Made by a program: the position numbers and the translations under genes. From positions 1 to 6,290 of the forward strand of contig CALANS010000034.1 of assembly GCA_937926105.1 (NCBI GenBank): DNA of 6,290 nucleotides, given 5' to 3'. The first letter of the stretch is position 1. Each line of letters opens with the position of its first letter. This DNA comes from an uncultured Actinomycetes bacterium. GTDB taxonomy: Bacteria > Actinomycetota > Actinomycetes > Mycobacteriales > Nakamurellaceae. The notes beneath the pieces are model-generated. The model was not told the origin of the DNA, ran no database searches, and saw nothing but the letters and a program-made list of their open reading frames with translations. Positions 440-6,248 of this stretch are shown piece by piece.

Positions 440-520
440 CAGTTAGACGGCGGATTCACACCGTGTTCCTCGCCTACCTCGCGGATGTGTAGCCAACGCC
501 CGATCCTCCACAGAGATCAC
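440..520 (-). pseudogene. istA: istA remnant (IS21 transposase N-terminus), frameshifted
   Basis: The GTG at 520 gives V-I-S-V-E-D-R-A, close to the I-S-V-E-D-W-A-E-I-R-R opening of IS21 transposases. The intact protein would continue with a helix-turn-helix ending in R-N-T-V-R. Here R-N-T-V is found in a different frame (codons starting at 469) only about a dozen codons later, and it runs directly into a TGA. The GTG frame itself stops 25 codons in. The segment therefore carries at least one frameshift, one internal deletion of perhaps ten or more codons, and stop codons. GACCGG just downstream fits the S-D-R-P stretch that follows the helix-turn-helix in intact relatives. It cannot make a functional transposase. 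Confidence 0.5.
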
Positions 521-535
521 TCTCCAATCGTCGAG

Positions 536-575
536 TGTTCACTTTTCAACGCGCCGAAACTGTCCAGTTTTCAAC
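536..575 (-). repeat. Two 15-bp direct repeats (IS21-type terminal repeats)
   Basis: Copies at 575-561 and 550-536 on the minus strand share GTTGAAAA-x-TG-x-ACA, differing at two positions. They are separated by 10 bases, giving a 25-base period. Their place just upstream of the istA remnant fits the internally repeated terminus of IS21-family elements. Confidence 0.65.
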
Positions 576-586
576 CGCCGCCGACA

Positions 587-917
587 GCCCAGAGCGCGCG
601 GCAACCGGCGAGAAGCGATCGACACGTCGGAGGGGACACGTACAACAGACCGCCATCCTCGACTGATCACCGCGTGATCATGAACCGGGTGGCCAGATTC
701 GGCACCGGCATAATCACTAGCCAGCGTCCGTGCCGCTAGAGTGCCGCCCGCCGACGCGACATCAGACACGCGACGTACCCCCTTCAGGAACTGGGACGAC
801 GGAAGTGGACAGAAGGGACACCGCGCCAAGATCGCGGGTCGCCGTTTCGGGAGCCGCATATGGACGCTCCGCAATCCGAGTCGAACGCTGGCGCCGACGC
901 GGGTCCGCAAGGTCGAA
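587..917. other. Intergenic stretch without a supported gene
   Basis: Open frames exist on both strands, but they have the arginine-, serine- and proline-rich composition of shadow frames, no ribosome sites and no recognisable motif. The only structured element I see is the inverted repeat at 664-680. It may be further debris from the mobile elements to its left. Confidence 0.5.
664..680. promoter_or_regulatory. Perfect inverted repeat, operator-like
   Basis: TGATCAC (664-670), CGC, GTGATCA (674-680): two perfectly complementary 7-base arms around three bases. Spacing and length suit a dimeric regulator of the GntR or TetR type. No credible gene starts nearby on either strand, so it may be an orphaned operator left after local decay, or the site of a regulator encoded elsewhere. 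Confidence 0.4.
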
Positions 918-1061
918 CTACGTCGTTGCTTTCGGATGTTCGTGGCGGATCTGGGTGAGGAGGAGGCTGACGAGGCTAAAGACACCTAGTGCATAGTGCA
1001 TACCGATGTGCATCAGCACAATTTTAAGGGTGTGCCGATTCACGACAGTAGCGGAACTCAT
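918..1061 (-). CDS. Possible 47-residue single-span membrane peptide
   Basis: The minus-strand ORF starts with ATG at 1061 and ends with TAG at 918. Residues 1-13 are polar. Residues 14-36 are hydrophobic (I-V-L-M-H-I-G-M-H-Y, then A-L-G-V-F-S-L-V-S-L-L-L), followed by a basic tail T-Q-I-R-H-E-H-P-K-A-T-T, as expected for one transmembrane helix. Its ATG overlaps the stop of the preceding short ORF as ATGA, a common sign of translational coupling, and it lies directly downstream of the large gene on the same strand. Against it, there is no clear ribosome site, no family I recognise, and frames rich in leucine and valine arise by chance in such DNA. It could be a third-cistron accessory peptide or nothing. 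Confidence 0.3.
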   Translation of the reverse strand: MSSATVVNRHTLKIVLMHIGMHYALGVFSLVSLLLTQIRHEHPKATT

Positions 1062-1138
1062 GTGCGGCGCTGCCTGAAATCGGCGACGACGGCCGTGACG
1101 AGCATGGCGCTCATCGCCAGGGCTGATAGAAACGTCAG
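1058..1138 (-). CDS. Possible 26-residue hydrophobic peptide overlapping the large gene's stop
   Basis: Reading from a CTG at 1138, which overlaps the large gene's TGA as CTGA, gives L-T-F-L-S-A-L-A-M-S-A-M-L-V-T-A-V-V-A followed by D-F-R-Q-R-R-T and a stop at 1060-1058. The shape is one hydrophobic helix and a basic end. CTG starts are rare. The conventional alternative is the ATG at 1114, leaving 18 residues. The stop overlaps the next ORF's ATG, so both might be read in series after the large gene, or joined by a frameshift into a two-helix hairpin. With no homology or ribosome site to lean on, this is a weak call. Confidence 0.18.
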   Translation of the reverse strand: MTFLSALAMSAMLVTAVVADFRQRRT

Positions 1139-4100
1139 TCCAGATCTTGGTCCAGTTGGGCTCGTTCGTCCTCACGGATGGCGTCCCGTTCGTACGACTC
1201 TGCGATGGCGCGCAGAATCCGTGCAGTTCGGGGCCACTGCACCTGTACTGCCAAACTCCATTTCTTGTACTGCTCAGCCAGCGTTCGCTCCTGGCTGCCG
1301 CCGTCGTAGGCACCACGCGAGGTGACACCACGGCTGTTCAGTCGGCCGGTGATTACGCCATTCTCTAGGTTGCGACTCCCGATCGACTCGATGAGTTCTC
1401 GAACTGGAACTGGTGGCCAAATTCCGTCGGCGTCGACCGGCGCCTGAGCAAAGGTTTGGCCAATCAGTTCGTCACCGATGTCCGCTCGGTCGAGGTCGGA
1501 TAGTTGGAGACGAGCCTGCTTGACCCACTCCCGCATCGCAGCTTGATCAAGTGTGCCGTCCTCCTGTCGTCCCGGGAAGCCGTGCCAACCGCGAAGGACC
1601 CACCAAGCGTGCTCGGTTAGCGGATCCGCGCTCTTGCTCTGACGGCGAGGCTTGTTCGCACCGCGGAAAGTGCGTTGAACGAGATCAACGAACAGGGCAG
1701 GGTCCGAGGCAAGAGCCCGGTTAAGGGCGCGTGGCTCGCGGTCGTGCTCGAGGAGCCTGAAATAGCCGAACTCCAGAGATGCGAGGTCGGCAACCGACAC
1801 GTCGGCTGCGGCTAGGTAGTCCAGCAATGTCCCCACGTAGTGGCCGGTCATCTGTGATATCCCCGCCCTACCCGGGTCCTGGGTGATCGCCGCGCGGAGA
1901 ACGGACAGGACCAGCGTTGCGCTCGGGAGGTGCTCCTTCTGGTCTGCTGTCGGGTTGAAGATGCCGTGGCTTGCGACCGCAATCGCCGACCAAGCTCGTG
2001 CTCTCTCAAGGAGCAAGTCGATAGCGCTGGTGAGATCTTCATGGGGAACGACCTCGAAAGGTGCCTCCGCCCAGAAGAGGTCTTCAGCGTCTGGGAACTC
2101 GCGGAGAACCTCCCAGAACCGGCTCGACGTCGGGACGTTCAGCACGAACCTTTTCAGGGCCTCGTTCCCCACATCGCCCCGTTCGAGCGCTCGCCTGAGA
2201 TCTGCTGGTCCATCGACGGCGAGGTGGCTTCGGACCCACGTTGCCGCGGCTTCCTGGAGCGCTGTGCTATCCGATGCCAGCCATTTCAGCATGGTGTCGA
2301 GAGCATCAATCGGCTCGTAGGTTGACAGAGCCCAACCGACCTGCGTCGGAACCTCAGCACGGGCCGCTACTGCGCCGAGCTGTTCCCATGCGTCGGCGCG
2401 GGCAAACAGAACGTCAAGTGCTTCGCGCCGTTTGGCTTCCAGCGCTGTCCGGTAGTGCTCGTAGTCGTTCAGGTCTGCATCCGACAGGTCTGGGCGCCAA
2501 TTGAAGAGATATGCGAACCGGCGTAGGTCATCAGCAGGTTGGAGCAAATCGGCCATCTTGTGTAAGCGGGCGCGTCGCTCCGCCGGCATCGCCCAGTCCG
2601 CGTCCTGGAAACGCTCGTGCCGCGCTGCGGTCTCTCGGACCTGTTCGAACAGGGCTAGTCGAACGTCTTCATCCAAGTCGCCGCGCGATGCTTCCTCCTC
2701 GAGGAACTCGATGATTCGATTCGCACCGTCCGTGCCAACGGTGGACAGCGCTTCCACAAGCCACGGCAGGGCGGTGCGATCTGCCTTGACCCATTCGAGT
2801 GCTCGGTCGACCAGGCTCGTCGCGAACGCGGACCATTCGCTGTTCGGCATTCGCTCGCTGGGGGGCTTCCAGAGTTGATAGCGCGGCTCATTGGGCGGGG
2901 AGACCAAGGCGTTACTGTCGGGCCACAGTGCCTTGAGCAAAGCCCAACCTGTCGTCGCGCTCACGACCCGGCAGGCGTCGAGCGCTTGGAGCCGGACTGC
3001 AAGATCTGCGCCAGTGTTCCGAATCCATCCGCACAGGACGCTAGACATGCTTGCGAGGGGATTGTTGCCCGAGTTCTTCGGTAGTTCGTAGCGGCAGAGT
3101 TCGGTCAGGATTTGTGTTGCGCGAACGAGGTAGTCCGGCGACCAGCAGAGCACTTCCAACGCCCACAACAAGTGATGGTGTTGACCTGACGGTCCCAGTA
3201 CCAGCGGATCGTCAATGGTCTGGAACATGCGGCCGACGGTCGGCTCGCTGGTTGAAAGGTCATCCTCTAGCGCCGAAAGGAAGGTGTCTGGAGCGGACTC
3301 GGCAAGAAGCGGAAGCACGTCGGCAATCGCTCCCCAAGTATGACCCTCGGAGCCGGCAACGACATGACGCAGAACGTCGCGCACAACCCGTGCGGCCACT
3401 GAGGAAGCGTGATTGGTGCCACCGGGGACTGATTCGATCGCGCCCGCCAGCGCGAGACTGTCGGCGATGCCCCGCCGCAGGGCAGGAGAGTACGTTCGGC
3501 GCTGTCCCTTCAATTGAGCTGCGATCCGCTCGTGTGAAGTGAGGCCCTCATAGGGATTTGGGTCCAGGAGAACGCTGATTGCGATATCTACCCATCGCGA
3601 AGCCAGATCCGATGACACCCGGTCGCCGAACTCGAGGAACGCCTCCTCCAAGGAGGTGAACACAAAAACGTTCCGCACATTCCGGATCGCCGGATCGGAC
3701 CCGGAACTGGCGTCGGCGATAGCACGCTGCAGATCGACCGAGGGGATGGCGGCCAGTTCGCTCAGGACCTGCAGGTCCTCGGGTCGATCGGTCCAACGAC
3801 TGGCCAGCATCAGTGCGGCGAGAGTGTCGGCCAGCGGCGGCCGAGACCACATGGGCTGCTTCACGCGAGGTGAGCGCGAAAGGCGCCGTACCAACGCGGG
3901 CAGGCTCCGACGAGCAAGTACCGCGAGGCGATCGGCTTGCCGCCATTCGACGCCCCCTGCCCGGAAGACCTCGGCCGCCTCGTTTCGGCCAACCCTCGGC
4001 AGGCGAATGTCGACGCTGCGGCGCACGGCAGAGCCGCTATCGACGATGGACACGACATGTCTACCGCCAACGAGGGCGCGGGTCACGTCTGCATTGTCGA

Positions 4101-5109
4101 AGTCGGGCACCAAGATCCCGGGCCCGGGGATTGCCACCATTCGATCCCATACGTCTGCCGACCGGACGATTGTGACTGCGCCGGGCTCGCTCGAATTGTC
4201 GTCGTCGGGCGTGAGGCACGCGTGCAGAAATCCCAAAGCGTCATCGACCCACTCAGTCTGGATCGATGTAATCCGCGGCTCCTCGCTAAGCATCGAGCGC
4301 AGTCGCTGCGCCTCCTTAGCCCGCCCGGCGATGAAGAGCTTCAGTGGAAGGGGGGGTTCGGTCGCAGCGGAAGAGCGGTCCCACCAAGTCTCTAGGGTCA
4401 CCGCGTCCCGGGGTCGAAGCCCGAGAGTTTCCGAGATCCACAAGTGCGCGGCCGGGGCAATCTGCAGCCAAGCTTCGAGGTCATCCGCATCGAGGACGAG
4501 GACATCCTTGAAGAGTTGCTCGGCTCGTCGCTCGGCGGCCCACGTGCCCTTGCCTTGCCATCGACGGACTGTCACGAAGACGAAGGTCACATCTTGCGAT
4601 GCCTCGCCCTTTCGTCCGTCGTAGTCCTGTGTGGCTTTGCGCTTAGAGTTCTTGTCGGTGCCGAACTCGAACAAAATCTGTCCGGCCGGCAGCAATTGCG
4701 TCTGCCGCTCGAGATTCGCTACGCCGTCCTCACCGGCCAGGGCGACCCCATCCCTTGTCCGAATCGAGATCTGGCCGGCCCCGGGGGTCTCGAACAACAG
4801 CCTGCGCACCAACTCTGGAAACCGATCCTGTGCTTCGCGAGCATTGGTCTCGGGCCACAGCGCGAGCTGGCTTGCCGTCGCAAGCTCGGGACTGGCCGTT
4901 CGTCGTTCGGCAGCGAGACTCATGGCTGGCGCTCCGCGCTGCGCTTTGAGGCGCTCCACGTCGCTCGCTCGGAACTTATAAAACGACGTCCCCGGCACCC
5001 GCGCATCCGGAAGCAGTCCCTGCCTGGCGTACGCCCGCACGGTGTTCTCGTGCGCCCCCAGCCGACGGGCTGTCTCACGGACACCAAGGAGTTCTGAGTC
5101 GCTATCCAT
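1135..5109 (-). CDS. Giant HTH / nuclease-like / helical-repeat protein (1324 aa), putative defence or DNA-surveillance protein
   Basis: I do not know a gene name for this protein. Residues 6-55 are a MerR/excisionase-like winged helix (G-V-R-E-T-A-R-R-L-G, then E-N-T-V-R-A-Y-A-R-Q-G-L-L-P, ending D-V-E-R-L). Residues about 97-235 resemble a restriction-endonuclease-like fold: G-E-D-G (126-129), then I-L-F-E-F-G-T-D-K (145-153), a buried strand T-F-V-F-V-T (175-180), and D-A-D-D-L-E-A-W-L (207-215). Residues about 255-415 look like a degenerate NTPase core without a Walker A motif, ending L-A-R-R-S-L-P-A-L-V-R-R-L (398-410). From about 420 to 1240 the protein is helical, alpha-solenoid-like. 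The C-terminus has G-V-T-S-R-G (1261-1266), D-G-G-S-Q-E-R (1269-1275) and E-S-Y-E-R-D-A-I-R-E-D-E-R (1304-1316), which I recall as a signature of large actinobacterial hypotheticals. No signal peptide or membrane span is seen, so it is probably cytoplasmic. The ATG at 5109 is fixed by an in-frame TAG four codons upstream. An N-terminal nuclease joined to a sensor-like repeat region suggests anti-phage or anti-plasmid function, which is an inference. Confidence 0.85.
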   Translation of the reverse strand: MDSDSELLGVRETARRLGAHENTVRAYARQGLLPDARVPGTSFYKFRASDVERLKAQRGAPAMSLAAERRTASPELATASQLALWPETNAREAQDRFPELVRRLLFETPGAGQISIRTRDGVALAGEDGVANLERQTQLLPAGQILFEFGTDKNSKRKATQDYDGRKGEASQDVTFVFVTVRRWQGKGTWAAERRAEQLFKDVLVLDADDLEAWLQIAPAAHLWISETLGLRPRDAVTLETWWDRSSAATEPPLPLKLFIAGRAKEAQRLRSMLSEEPRITSIQTEWVDDALGFLHACLTPDDDNSSEPGAVTIVRSADVWDRMVAIPGPGILVPDFDNADVTRALVGGRHVVSIVDSGSAVRRSVDIRLPRVGRNEAAEVFRAGGVEWRQADRLAVLARRSLPALVRRLSRSPRVKQPMWSRPPLADTLAALMLASRWTDRPEDLQVLSELAAIPSVDLQRAIADASSGSDPAIRNVRNVFVFTSLEEAFLEFGDRVSSDLASRWVDIAISVLLDPNPYEGLTSHERIAAQLKGQRRTYSPALRRGIADSLALAGAIESVPGGTNHASSVAARVVRDVLRHVVAGSEGHTWGAIADVLPLLAESAPDTFLSALEDDLSTSEPTVGRMFQTIDDPLVLGPSGQHHHLLWALEVLCWSPDYLVRATQILTELCRYELPKNSGNNPLASMSSVLCGWIRNTGADLAVRLQALDACRVVSATTGWALLKALWPDSNALVSPPNEPRYQLWKPPSERMPNSEWSAFATSLVDRALEWVKADRTALPWLVEALSTVGTDGANRIIEFLEEEASRGDLDEDVRLALFEQVRETAARHERFQDADWAMPAERRARLHKMADLLQPADDLRRFAYLFNWRPDLSDADLNDYEHYRTALEAKRREALDVLFARADAWEQLGAVAARAEVPTQVGWALSTYEPIDALDTMLKWLASDSTALQEAAATWVRSHLAVDGPADLRRALERGDVGNEALKRFVLNVPTSSRFWEVLREFPDAEDLFWAEAPFEVVPHEDLTSAIDLLLERARAWSAIAVASHGIFNPTADQKEHLPSATLVLSVLRAAITQDPGRAGISQMTGHYVGTLLDYLAAADVSVADLASLEFGYFRLLEHDREPRALNRALASDPALFVDLVQRTFRGANKPRRQSKSADPLTEHAWWVLRGWHGFPGRQEDGTLDQAAMREWVKQARLQLSDLDRADIGDELIGQTFAQAPVDADGIWPPVPVRELIESIGSRNLENGVITGRLNSRGVTSRGAYDGGSQERTLAEQYKKWSLAVQVQWPRTARILRAIAESYERDAIREDERAQLDQDLD

Positions 5110-5121: not shown

Positions 5122-5371
5122 TCAGATGTGCACTTTCAGCACTCACGCGCGTCTTTCTACCTGCTGTCGTGGTGGCAGCCGCGCCCCACTGCCCCCGCCC
5201 GGCACAGCTCGGACAGCGTCCCTCGTCTTAGAAACTGTCCATCCCAGAGGCCCGACGGGCGGCCATCTGGGCCAATGGTGTTCGTGGGCGTCGTGAAGTG
5301 AGAATTTCGCCCGGGCGTGGCGCCGCCTGCCTGTGCAACGCTTCGACGCCTCGACCAGGCGCCAGCGGCTA

Positions 5372-5632: not shown

Positions 5633-5641
5633 GTTAGTGCA
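5627..5641. promoter_or_regulatory. Imperfect inverted repeat over the -10 box, possible autoregulatory operator
   Basis: TACACT (5627-5632), GTT, AGTGCA (5636-5641): the arms pair at five of six positions. It covers the proposed -10 and start point, the usual place for an antitoxin to repress its own operon. The arms are short, so chance occurrence cannot be excluded. Confidence 0.35.
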
Positions 5642-5660
5642 TGGTAGGAATGGGCGGACT

Positions 5661-5666
5661 GGAGGT
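5661..5666 (+). promoter_or_regulatory. Ribosome binding site that decides the antitoxin start
   Basis: GGAGGT ends nine bases before the ATG at 5676. No comparable site precedes the in-frame GTG at 5637, so the shorter protein is preferred. Confidence 0.6.
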
Positions 5667-5675
5667 GCGGCGGGC

Positions 5676-6248
5676 ATGACGGTCAGTGAGCTGTTCCGCG
5701 CGCACGGCATTGACCTCGACGAGCAGCAGGTCTTGGACCTGATTGAAGCGGCGCTGGCGGGGGCACCGAGTGCCGCGCCGTCGCCGTCGCCGCTCACTCC
5801 GGATGAGGCTGCGATTTACGACGCGGCCGGCATGGTCGATGACCCCGATGCGCTCCAAGGGCAGGCTGCGGGCGCGGCGGCACGGTTCGTCGCGCTTCTG
5901 GCGACCGCGATCCCGGTGGCTGGGGCCGCGGCGCGTATCGGAGTGTCGCGCTCCCGGATGCAGCAGATGATCGCCGCGAGGGATGTGTGGGCTCTGCGTC
6001 ACGGTTCGCGTTGGGTGCTGCCGGCTATCCAGTTCGACGGCGATAGGTTCGTTGTCGGCTGGTCGACCGTTGCCAGGGCGCTGCCCGAGTCGGCGCACCC
6101 TCTGGAAGTTCTCGGGTTCGTCACCACGGTCCAGCCCGAGTTGTATGCCGACGGCCGGCCGCAGTCGGTGCTTGAATGGCTGCGCAGCGGCGGCTCCCCG
6201 GAGAGAGCCGCGACGCTTGCCGCCGCGCTGCACGACGTCGCTGCCTGA
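5676..6248 (+). CDS. Antitoxin-like helix-turn-helix protein of a RES-type toxin-antitoxin pair (190 aa)
   Basis: Residues 1-28 form an acidic N-terminal helical piece, then comes an alanine/proline/serine linker (29-41). Residues about 79-121 read as a helix-turn-helix (I-P-V-A-G-A-A-A-R-I-G-V-S-R-S-R-M-Q-Q-M) with a trailing strand R-W-V-L-P-A-I-Q-F-D-G. Residues about 141-187 resemble the toxin-binding region of Xre/MbcA/ParS-type antitoxins: H-P-L-E-V-L-G-F-V-T, then Q-S-V-L-E-W-L-R-S-G-G-S-P-E-R-A and L-A-A-A-L. In such pairs the antitoxin binds and occludes a RES-domain NAD+-consuming toxin and represses the shared promoter. The toxin candidate starts 12 bases after this stop, the usual order. 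At 190 residues it is longer than MbcA-type antitoxins of roughly 110-150, because of the N-terminal part and linker. An alternative start at GTG 5637 would add 13 residues but lacks a ribosome site. The family assignment comes from sequence appearance and context. Confidence 0.75.
   Translation: MTVSELFRAHGIDLDEQQVLDLIEAALAGAPSAAPSPSPLTPDEAAIYDAAGMVDDPDALQGQAAGAAARFVALLATAIPVAGAAARIGVSRSRMQQMIAARDVWALRHGSRWVLPAIQFDGDRFVVGWSTVARALPESAHPLEVLGFVTTVQPELYADGRPQSVLEWLRSGGSPERAATLAAALHDVAA

Follow-up and report, generated by a model that had tools for sequence, protein, structure and literature searches.

We analyzed a stretch of 6,290 nucleotides (hereafter the window; positions 1 to 6,290 of contig CALANS010000034.1, GenBank assembly GCA_937926105.1) from an uncultured Actinomycetes bacterium of the family Nakamurellaceae, in which the minus strand carries 1 long open reading frame (ORF), at 1135-5109, with 1324 codons and an ATG start. 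The encoded protein combines a helix-turn-helix (HTH) head, a probable nuclease, a STAND-type core without a P-loop, a winged-helix domain, and a HEAT superhelix, and we consider it reasonably likely to be a single-gene immune sensor on mobile DNA that diverged from the PD-lambda-4 A lineage. The features of the gene, with their basis, were as follows.

1135-5109, minus strand: whole gene, encoding a 1324-aa HTH-nuclease-dead STAND-winged helix-HEAT protein (ORF, homologues, structure models)
5128-5144, minus strand: candidate operator, a tandem direct repeat with a 9-bp period (upstream alignment and motif scoring)
4936-5091, minus strand: BldC/MerR-type winged HTH, residues 7-58
4420-4884, minus strand: predicted PD-(D/E)xK nuclease domain, residues 76-230
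4726-4728, minus strand: D128, proposed catalytic (conservation in the aligned sequences)
4666-4668, minus strand: E148, proposed catalytic (conservation in the aligned sequences)
4636-4638, minus strand: K158, proposed catalytic lysine, shifted onto the next helix (conservation in the aligned sequences)
3865-4407, minus strand: predicted AAA+/STAND core without a P-loop, residues 235-415 (fold matches, alignment, P-loop scan)
3655-3831, minus strand: winged-helix domain, residues 427-485 (helix and strand order of the model, by eye)
1138-3651, minus strand: HEAT superhelix, residues 487-1324, proposed sensor (model and fold matches)
1288-1359, minus strand: conserved C-terminal motif, residues 1251-1274 (N1258, R1260, G1261, G1270-G1271, E1274; homologue alignment)

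Two structure models (pLDDT 91 and 88) placed the winged HTH at residues 2-59, the nuclease at 76-230, and the core at 235-415, followed by the winged helix and the HEAT repeats; a giant single ORF with this domain order, as a preliminary description of the sequence had proposed, is thus borne out by the 1324-aa ORF and both models. Above the Pfam cut-off only the HTH was identified (HTH_17, residues 7-58, 3.8e-7; also MerR_1), and NCBIfam gave weak excisionase/MerR matches for it (TIGR01764, E 7e-4). When 3 window ORFs were scanned with PADLOC at E<=1, mad1 alone was found (residues 4-60, E 1.5e-9), with no match beyond the HTH in the 1324-aa protein, the PD-lambda-4 A model included. A search of 5.8 billion proteins returned 169 homologues at E<=1e-3, and the 120 matches listed ranged in identity from 90% to 38% and were mostly full length, with some of ~1262 aa lacking the HTH. 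Residues were compared in an alignment of 80 sequences, comprising 79 of 84 loci and the window, from which loci with broken or split frames (L032, L037, L038, L041, and L050) were left out.

The nearest folds to the nuclease model were R.BspD6I2, MspJI, and FokI. In the alignment, D128 was kept in 79 of 79 sequences, E148 in 80 of 80, and K158 in 79 of 80, with identity of the N-terminal parts down to 22%. The predicted core fold, the conserved acidic pair, and the lysine expected of a PD-(D/E)xK enzyme were all present, the lysine being displaced to 10 residues beyond E148 as against 2 in the usual spacing. A migrated lysine can still serve in such nuclease sites. On the models, residues 76-230 are a probable PD-(D/E)xK domain that cuts DNA, in keeping with the nuclease-like fold that had been expected at residues 90-240, and D128, E148, and K158 are proposed as the catalytic set. 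Alternatively, the nuclease could be dead or DNA-holding, with the protein acting by binding or by blocking transcription, as the spacing of the lysine and the dead STAND core adjoining the domain would suggest; however, a dead site would not need the conservation of D, E, and K that persists while N-terminal identity falls so far, and we regard this alternative as quite improbable.

By fold match and alignment, core residues 235-415 have the STAND/AAA+ fold of the Avs/STAND immune ATPases, with the Walker A motif missing. A P-loop scan of the 80 aligned sequences found the pattern elsewhere in 22 proteins and in none at the core position. Judged from these sequences, the core of the window family cannot bind nucleoside triphosphate (NTP) via a P-loop, and the degenerate NTPase-like core of the preliminary description can now be specified as a predicted AAA+/STAND fold lacking that loop.

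The HEAT profile also found a 1264-aa protein in genome G030 that PADLOC named PD-Lambda-4_A (1018 bits), and a search with the PD-Lambda-4_A model gave hits in 12 of 369 gammaproteobacterial genomes. In an alignment (A10) of 10 PD-lambda-4-like proteins, 3 near the model and 7 remote, DGGxD and QxK were invariant, and a P-loop was present in all 12 PD-lambda-4-like proteins read. In hhalign, with scores read without a baseline of unrelated STAND/HEAT proteins, the window family matched the PD-lambda-4 A-like proteins collinearly over 1088 columns at whole length (98.1%, E 9e-14), and also with the HEAT part alone (98.2%, E 3.4e-14), the nuclease alone (65.3%, E 6e-5), and the N-terminal part alone (97.2%, E 4.5e-11), which holds by itself with HEAT excluded. 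D128 fell on the second D of DGGxD, E148 on the Q of QxK, and G150 in the place of its K, so that the window family has D...E...K instead of the DGGxD...QxK site. Because the profile homology is collinear over the whole length, we favor reading the window family as a diverged offshoot of the PD-lambda-4 A lineage in which NTP binding was lost and the nuclease site rebuilt; it is related to PD-lambda-4 and is not counted as a member. The earlier statement that the protein matches no named system therefore holds for the single sequence, where only the mad1 HTH was found at E<=1, but not for profiles, where homology to PD-lambda-4 A is apparent. By eye, 5 more distant PD-lambda-4-like proteins (L119-L122 and L124) had an XRE-type HTH at the N terminus, and fusion to an HTH is therefore recurrent in the wider lineage. 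Genome G198 harbored both a window-family member (L103) and a full-length PD-lambda-4 A match (L114).

The winged-helix/HEAT part was identified with other N-terminal partners as well. Residues 291-1179 of Shewanella protein P0242 matched its profile (E 5e-127), and the first 285 residues had no match to the window nuclease or core in profile comparison (probability 4.9). This P0242-type N-terminal part had invariant D62, D63, Q82, and K84 (19 of 19 aligned) and, by eye, a QxK nuclease-like motif; Pfam returned no match for it and PADLOC only DUF626_VIII at 0.003. The HEAT part of P0242 had 472 protein matches at E<=1e-3, and those among the 120 listed were mostly of the P0242 length class. 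This subfamily (A9), of ~1185 aa and carrying a QxK nuclease-like domain of its own at the N terminus, belonged mainly to marine gammaproteobacteria by the names listed, and in Shewanella OS117 a P0242-type gene lay beside Abi_2 and SieB genes.

In other loci the partner was a separate protein. A Buttiauxella locus encoded a 106-aa HetE-N protein (PF20701, 1.5e-40) 5 nt before a HEAT-only protein, and the end of the former (L095:7573-7893) and the start of the latter (7899-10667) showed, by eye, a similar short motif (NHSGTGDNVGGN and NHTGTGHNVAGD, respectively), as if it were a tag pairing effector with sensor. A separate small ORF preceded the HEAT-only ORF in genomes G201 and G068. This small ORF, whose RNxxxH motif looks HEPN-like on inspection and for which Pfam gave no match, overlapped an 860-aa HEAT ORF by 11 nt at both loci: at L104 it encoded 214 aa (858-1502; HEAT ORF, 1492-4074), and at L105 it was cut at the locus start (up to 520; HEAT ORF, 510-3095). 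Both loci were split inside the winged helix with an identical junction sequence (TTT TGA C context), at which re-initiation and a frameshift are each possible. A HEAT module that stays constant while the N-terminal part changes is what a sensor would show, and the winged-helix/HEAT module appears to be a sensor whose effectors can be exchanged. The effector-plus-sensor layout suggested earlier is accordingly backed by the 2 models, the invariant D, E, and K, and these other N-terminal modules on the same array. The comparison also bears on whether the protein is a restriction enzyme (type IV/IIS-like) that depends on DNA modification or sequence, in which the HTH and nuclease would find and cut foreign DNA directly and the HEAT repeats only shape the protein. 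Such an enzyme would suit the nearest nuclease folds and the lack of a methylase among the 3 window ORFs scanned, but many members have a different type of HTH or none at all, leaving no constant target reader, and it is the HEAT module that is kept when the N-terminal part differs, making this reading improbable.

Pfam and fold match identified the N-terminal head as a BldC-like winged HTH. When the upstream DNA of close members was aligned, two copies of AAGTnCAC with a period of 9 nt emerged, the repeat stopping ~20 nt short of the start codon; the window copy, 35-19 nt upstream of the ATG, was weak (11 of 14 positions), and the repeat was clear (12-14 of 14) in L001-L005, L007, L081, and L128. 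In a first scoring, at least 12 of 14 positions were matched in 6 of 7 HTH members (the window having 11), all except L081 being among those used to spot the repeat, and in 0 of 21 HTH-less members and 0 of 52 others, a group that wrongly holds some HTH members with the start set too far upstream. A second scoring of 5 members unused in discovery gave 14 for L081, 13 for L128, and 9-10, below threshold, for L006, L008, and L009; L005 scored 10 there with a mis-set start, its clear score coming from the first scoring. Shuffled sequences reached 12 in 0 of 350, 2 of 1050, and 2 of 2600 cases in the first scoring and in 2 of 1000 in the second. The peptide TKST, which the repeat DNA would encode, was found at a similar distance in 5 of 9 listed proteins whose starts were extended by at least 20 residues. 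BldC binds direct repeats with 9 bp per subunit (PMC5859096). From this period in the tandem repeats at the promoter, together with the BldC fold of the head, we infer that the HTH is probably an autorepressor.

The genome-contig search identified 156 relatives, and the 80 of these listed spanned Actinomycetota, Pseudomonadota, Cyanobacteria, Planctomycetota, Gemmatimonadota, and others. Family members were carried by 22 of 72,556 plasmid records (11 conjugative) and by 10 of 5426 Escherichia coli genomes, 4 of the 10 being named HS; the 2 E. coli regions opened were 1 element, located in strain HS (L085) by guaA with an integrase. In both regions the gene was preceded by a HigA-like ORF and a PIN-domain gene (PIN_12, 2e-24; L085:10123-11839 and L086:6252-7839), so the gene in E. 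coli may be part of a longer operon. With counts that are lower bounds (the best first-look candidates were scored, mostly 2 per genome) and that include the centre genomes G001 and G002, picked as gene carriers, the HEAT module was identified in 6 of 369 gammaproteobacterial genomes (class of the Enterobacter member; 8 hits, 2 left out as PD-lambda-4-like) and the family in 6 of 394 actinomycete genomes (class of the Agrococcus member; 119 of 125 hits matched the HTH region only and were left out). The nuclease was shown in G001, G147, and G198 of the 6 gammaproteobacterial carriers, with G201 and G068 HEAT-only and G213 in pieces; among the actinomycete copies, 1 had 5 stops, 1 was split, and 1 consisted of fragments. 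Truncated or decayed copies were seen in P0165 (Klebsiella), G683, G581, and G382. Records annotated the family as "helix-turn-helix," "HigA antitoxin," or "hypothetical protein." The distribution is sporadic and mobile. The excisionase-type match of the HTH could point to a housekeeping regulator or a recombination directionality factor with a large tail, but this sporadic occurrence, the decayed copies, and the 1250 residues of nuclease, core, and HEAT make it very improbable.

Mobility raises another alternative, that the gene is not anti-phage and either guards its host plasmid or island against other plasmids and integrative and conjugative elements or constitutes a maintenance (addiction) module. 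The plasmid and conjugative records favor this competition between elements, as do par, tra, or rep genes near L081, L084, L085, and L093, an Enterobacter member with an XRE-type head (HTH_3, 1.2e-9), relatives annotated as HigA antitoxin, and the HigA-like ORF and PIN gene adjoining the gene in E. coli HS. However, the gene was also found on chromosomal contigs with defence models nearby, it is homologous to proteins that PADLOC names anti-phage, and a separate toxin is unneeded. We judge this alternative rather unlikely.

Across 38 loci with enough flank (ORFs <110 aa excluded, E<=1e-10), ORFs within 3.5 kb had 145+164 = 309 PADLOC model matches over 242 genes, compared with 23+63 = 86 over 204 genes for ORFs 6-10 kb away, a roughly threefold difference per gene obtained with redundant models and simple gene calls. 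Among the 14 plasmid regions opened, 5 had restriction, Abi, SIR2, Shedu, or superinfection-exclusion annotations (L082, L083, L089, L092, and L096), 5 had only toxin-antitoxin, ImmA, or nuclease names (L084, L091, L093, L094, and L095), and 4 had neither (L081, L087, L088, and L090, the last without annotation). Predominantly housekeeping contexts had been named beforehand as an argument against defence, and the contexts opened were accessory. In Thalassospira (L092:6062-13080), the gene lay between 2 Xre-RES toxin-antitoxin pairs. The window itself also contains a 103-aa open frame at 1-309 on the minus strand, truncated at the edge of the window, whose relatives lie on 5 plasmids, among them one of Arthrobacter sp. 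ZXY-2 (50.5%), together with the following feature, not claimed as part of the system.

5637-6248, plus strand: antitoxin-like DNA-binding ORF adjoining the gene, of a type found beside a RES gene, its partner lying outside the window

Because of the sporadic mobile distribution, the neighbors, and the homology to PD-lambda-4 A-like proteins, an anti-phage defence role is likely. In the resting cell, the BldC-like head would bind the repeats head-to-tail and repress the gene. The HEAT array would recognize something produced by an incoming phage or element, with a protein as the likeliest candidate, and with no NTP binding through a P-loop, ligand binding alone would rearrange the molecule, the STAND core serving as a linker or oligomerization surface. 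The rearrangement would free or cluster the nuclease domains, and DNA would be cut and the invader stopped, with or without cell killing. More tentatively, one can plausibly envisage a superfamily of NLR-like bacterial sensors in which the winged-helix/HEAT module repeatedly changed its effector, the candidates being 2 unrelated nuclease-type heads, a HEPN-like ORF, and a HetE-N partner; the window branch would have lost NTP control in favor of ligand-only activation, with its dose set by its own HTH on the 9-bp repeats, binding that may in addition keep the nuclease inactive on DNA before a trigger releases it.

What is new here is the dead-core branch with a displaced lysine, the varied effectors on 1 apparent HEAT sensor, and the candidate 9-bp operator. 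A large unnamed multi-phylum family is tied to a lineage with an anti-phage protein, with HEAT suggested as the constant piece, and 2 testable questions arise: whether nucleotide is dispensable for a STAND-type immune protein, and what the HEAT module common to these proteins recognizes, which could be approached by comparing members with different effectors. The operator, if genuine, would offer an easy way into the question of how levels of a toxic nuclease are restrained.

Among known systems, PD-lambda-4 A (PADLOC PDLC03991), to which Vassallo et al. 2022 (PMC9519451) is reportedly linked, is alike in its collinear nuclease, STAND core, and HEAT part, but the PD-lambda-4 A-like proteins have a P-loop and DGGxD...QxK, whereas the window family has no P-loop, D...E...K, and a BldC-type head. 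Avs proteins are functional ATPases whose sensors are of the TPR type, and relative to the Avs/AVAST layout (nuclease or SIR2, STAND NTPase, helical sensor) the window family is without a P-loop and its proposed sensor is HEAT-type. DSR2 carries HEAT repeats and, likened by description only, also joins an enzyme effector (SIR2) to a HEAT sensor; it is an NADase, in contrast to the probable DNA nuclease of the window family, which additionally has a dead STAND core, a winged helix, and an HTH. PD-lambda-4 is tabulated as a P-loop NTPase system (PMC10952713), and the trigger of DSR2 is a phage tail tube protein (PMC11263360). MADS Mad1 (PADLOC PDLC04133) shares the small HTH at residues 4-60 and nothing else, and other mad models had no match in the 3 ORFs scanned in this 6.3-kb window. 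BldC is a free regulator of 68 residues with the repeat AATTXXXX(C) (PMC5859096), whereas in the window family the same fold heads an effector protein and the candidate repeat is AAGTnCAC.
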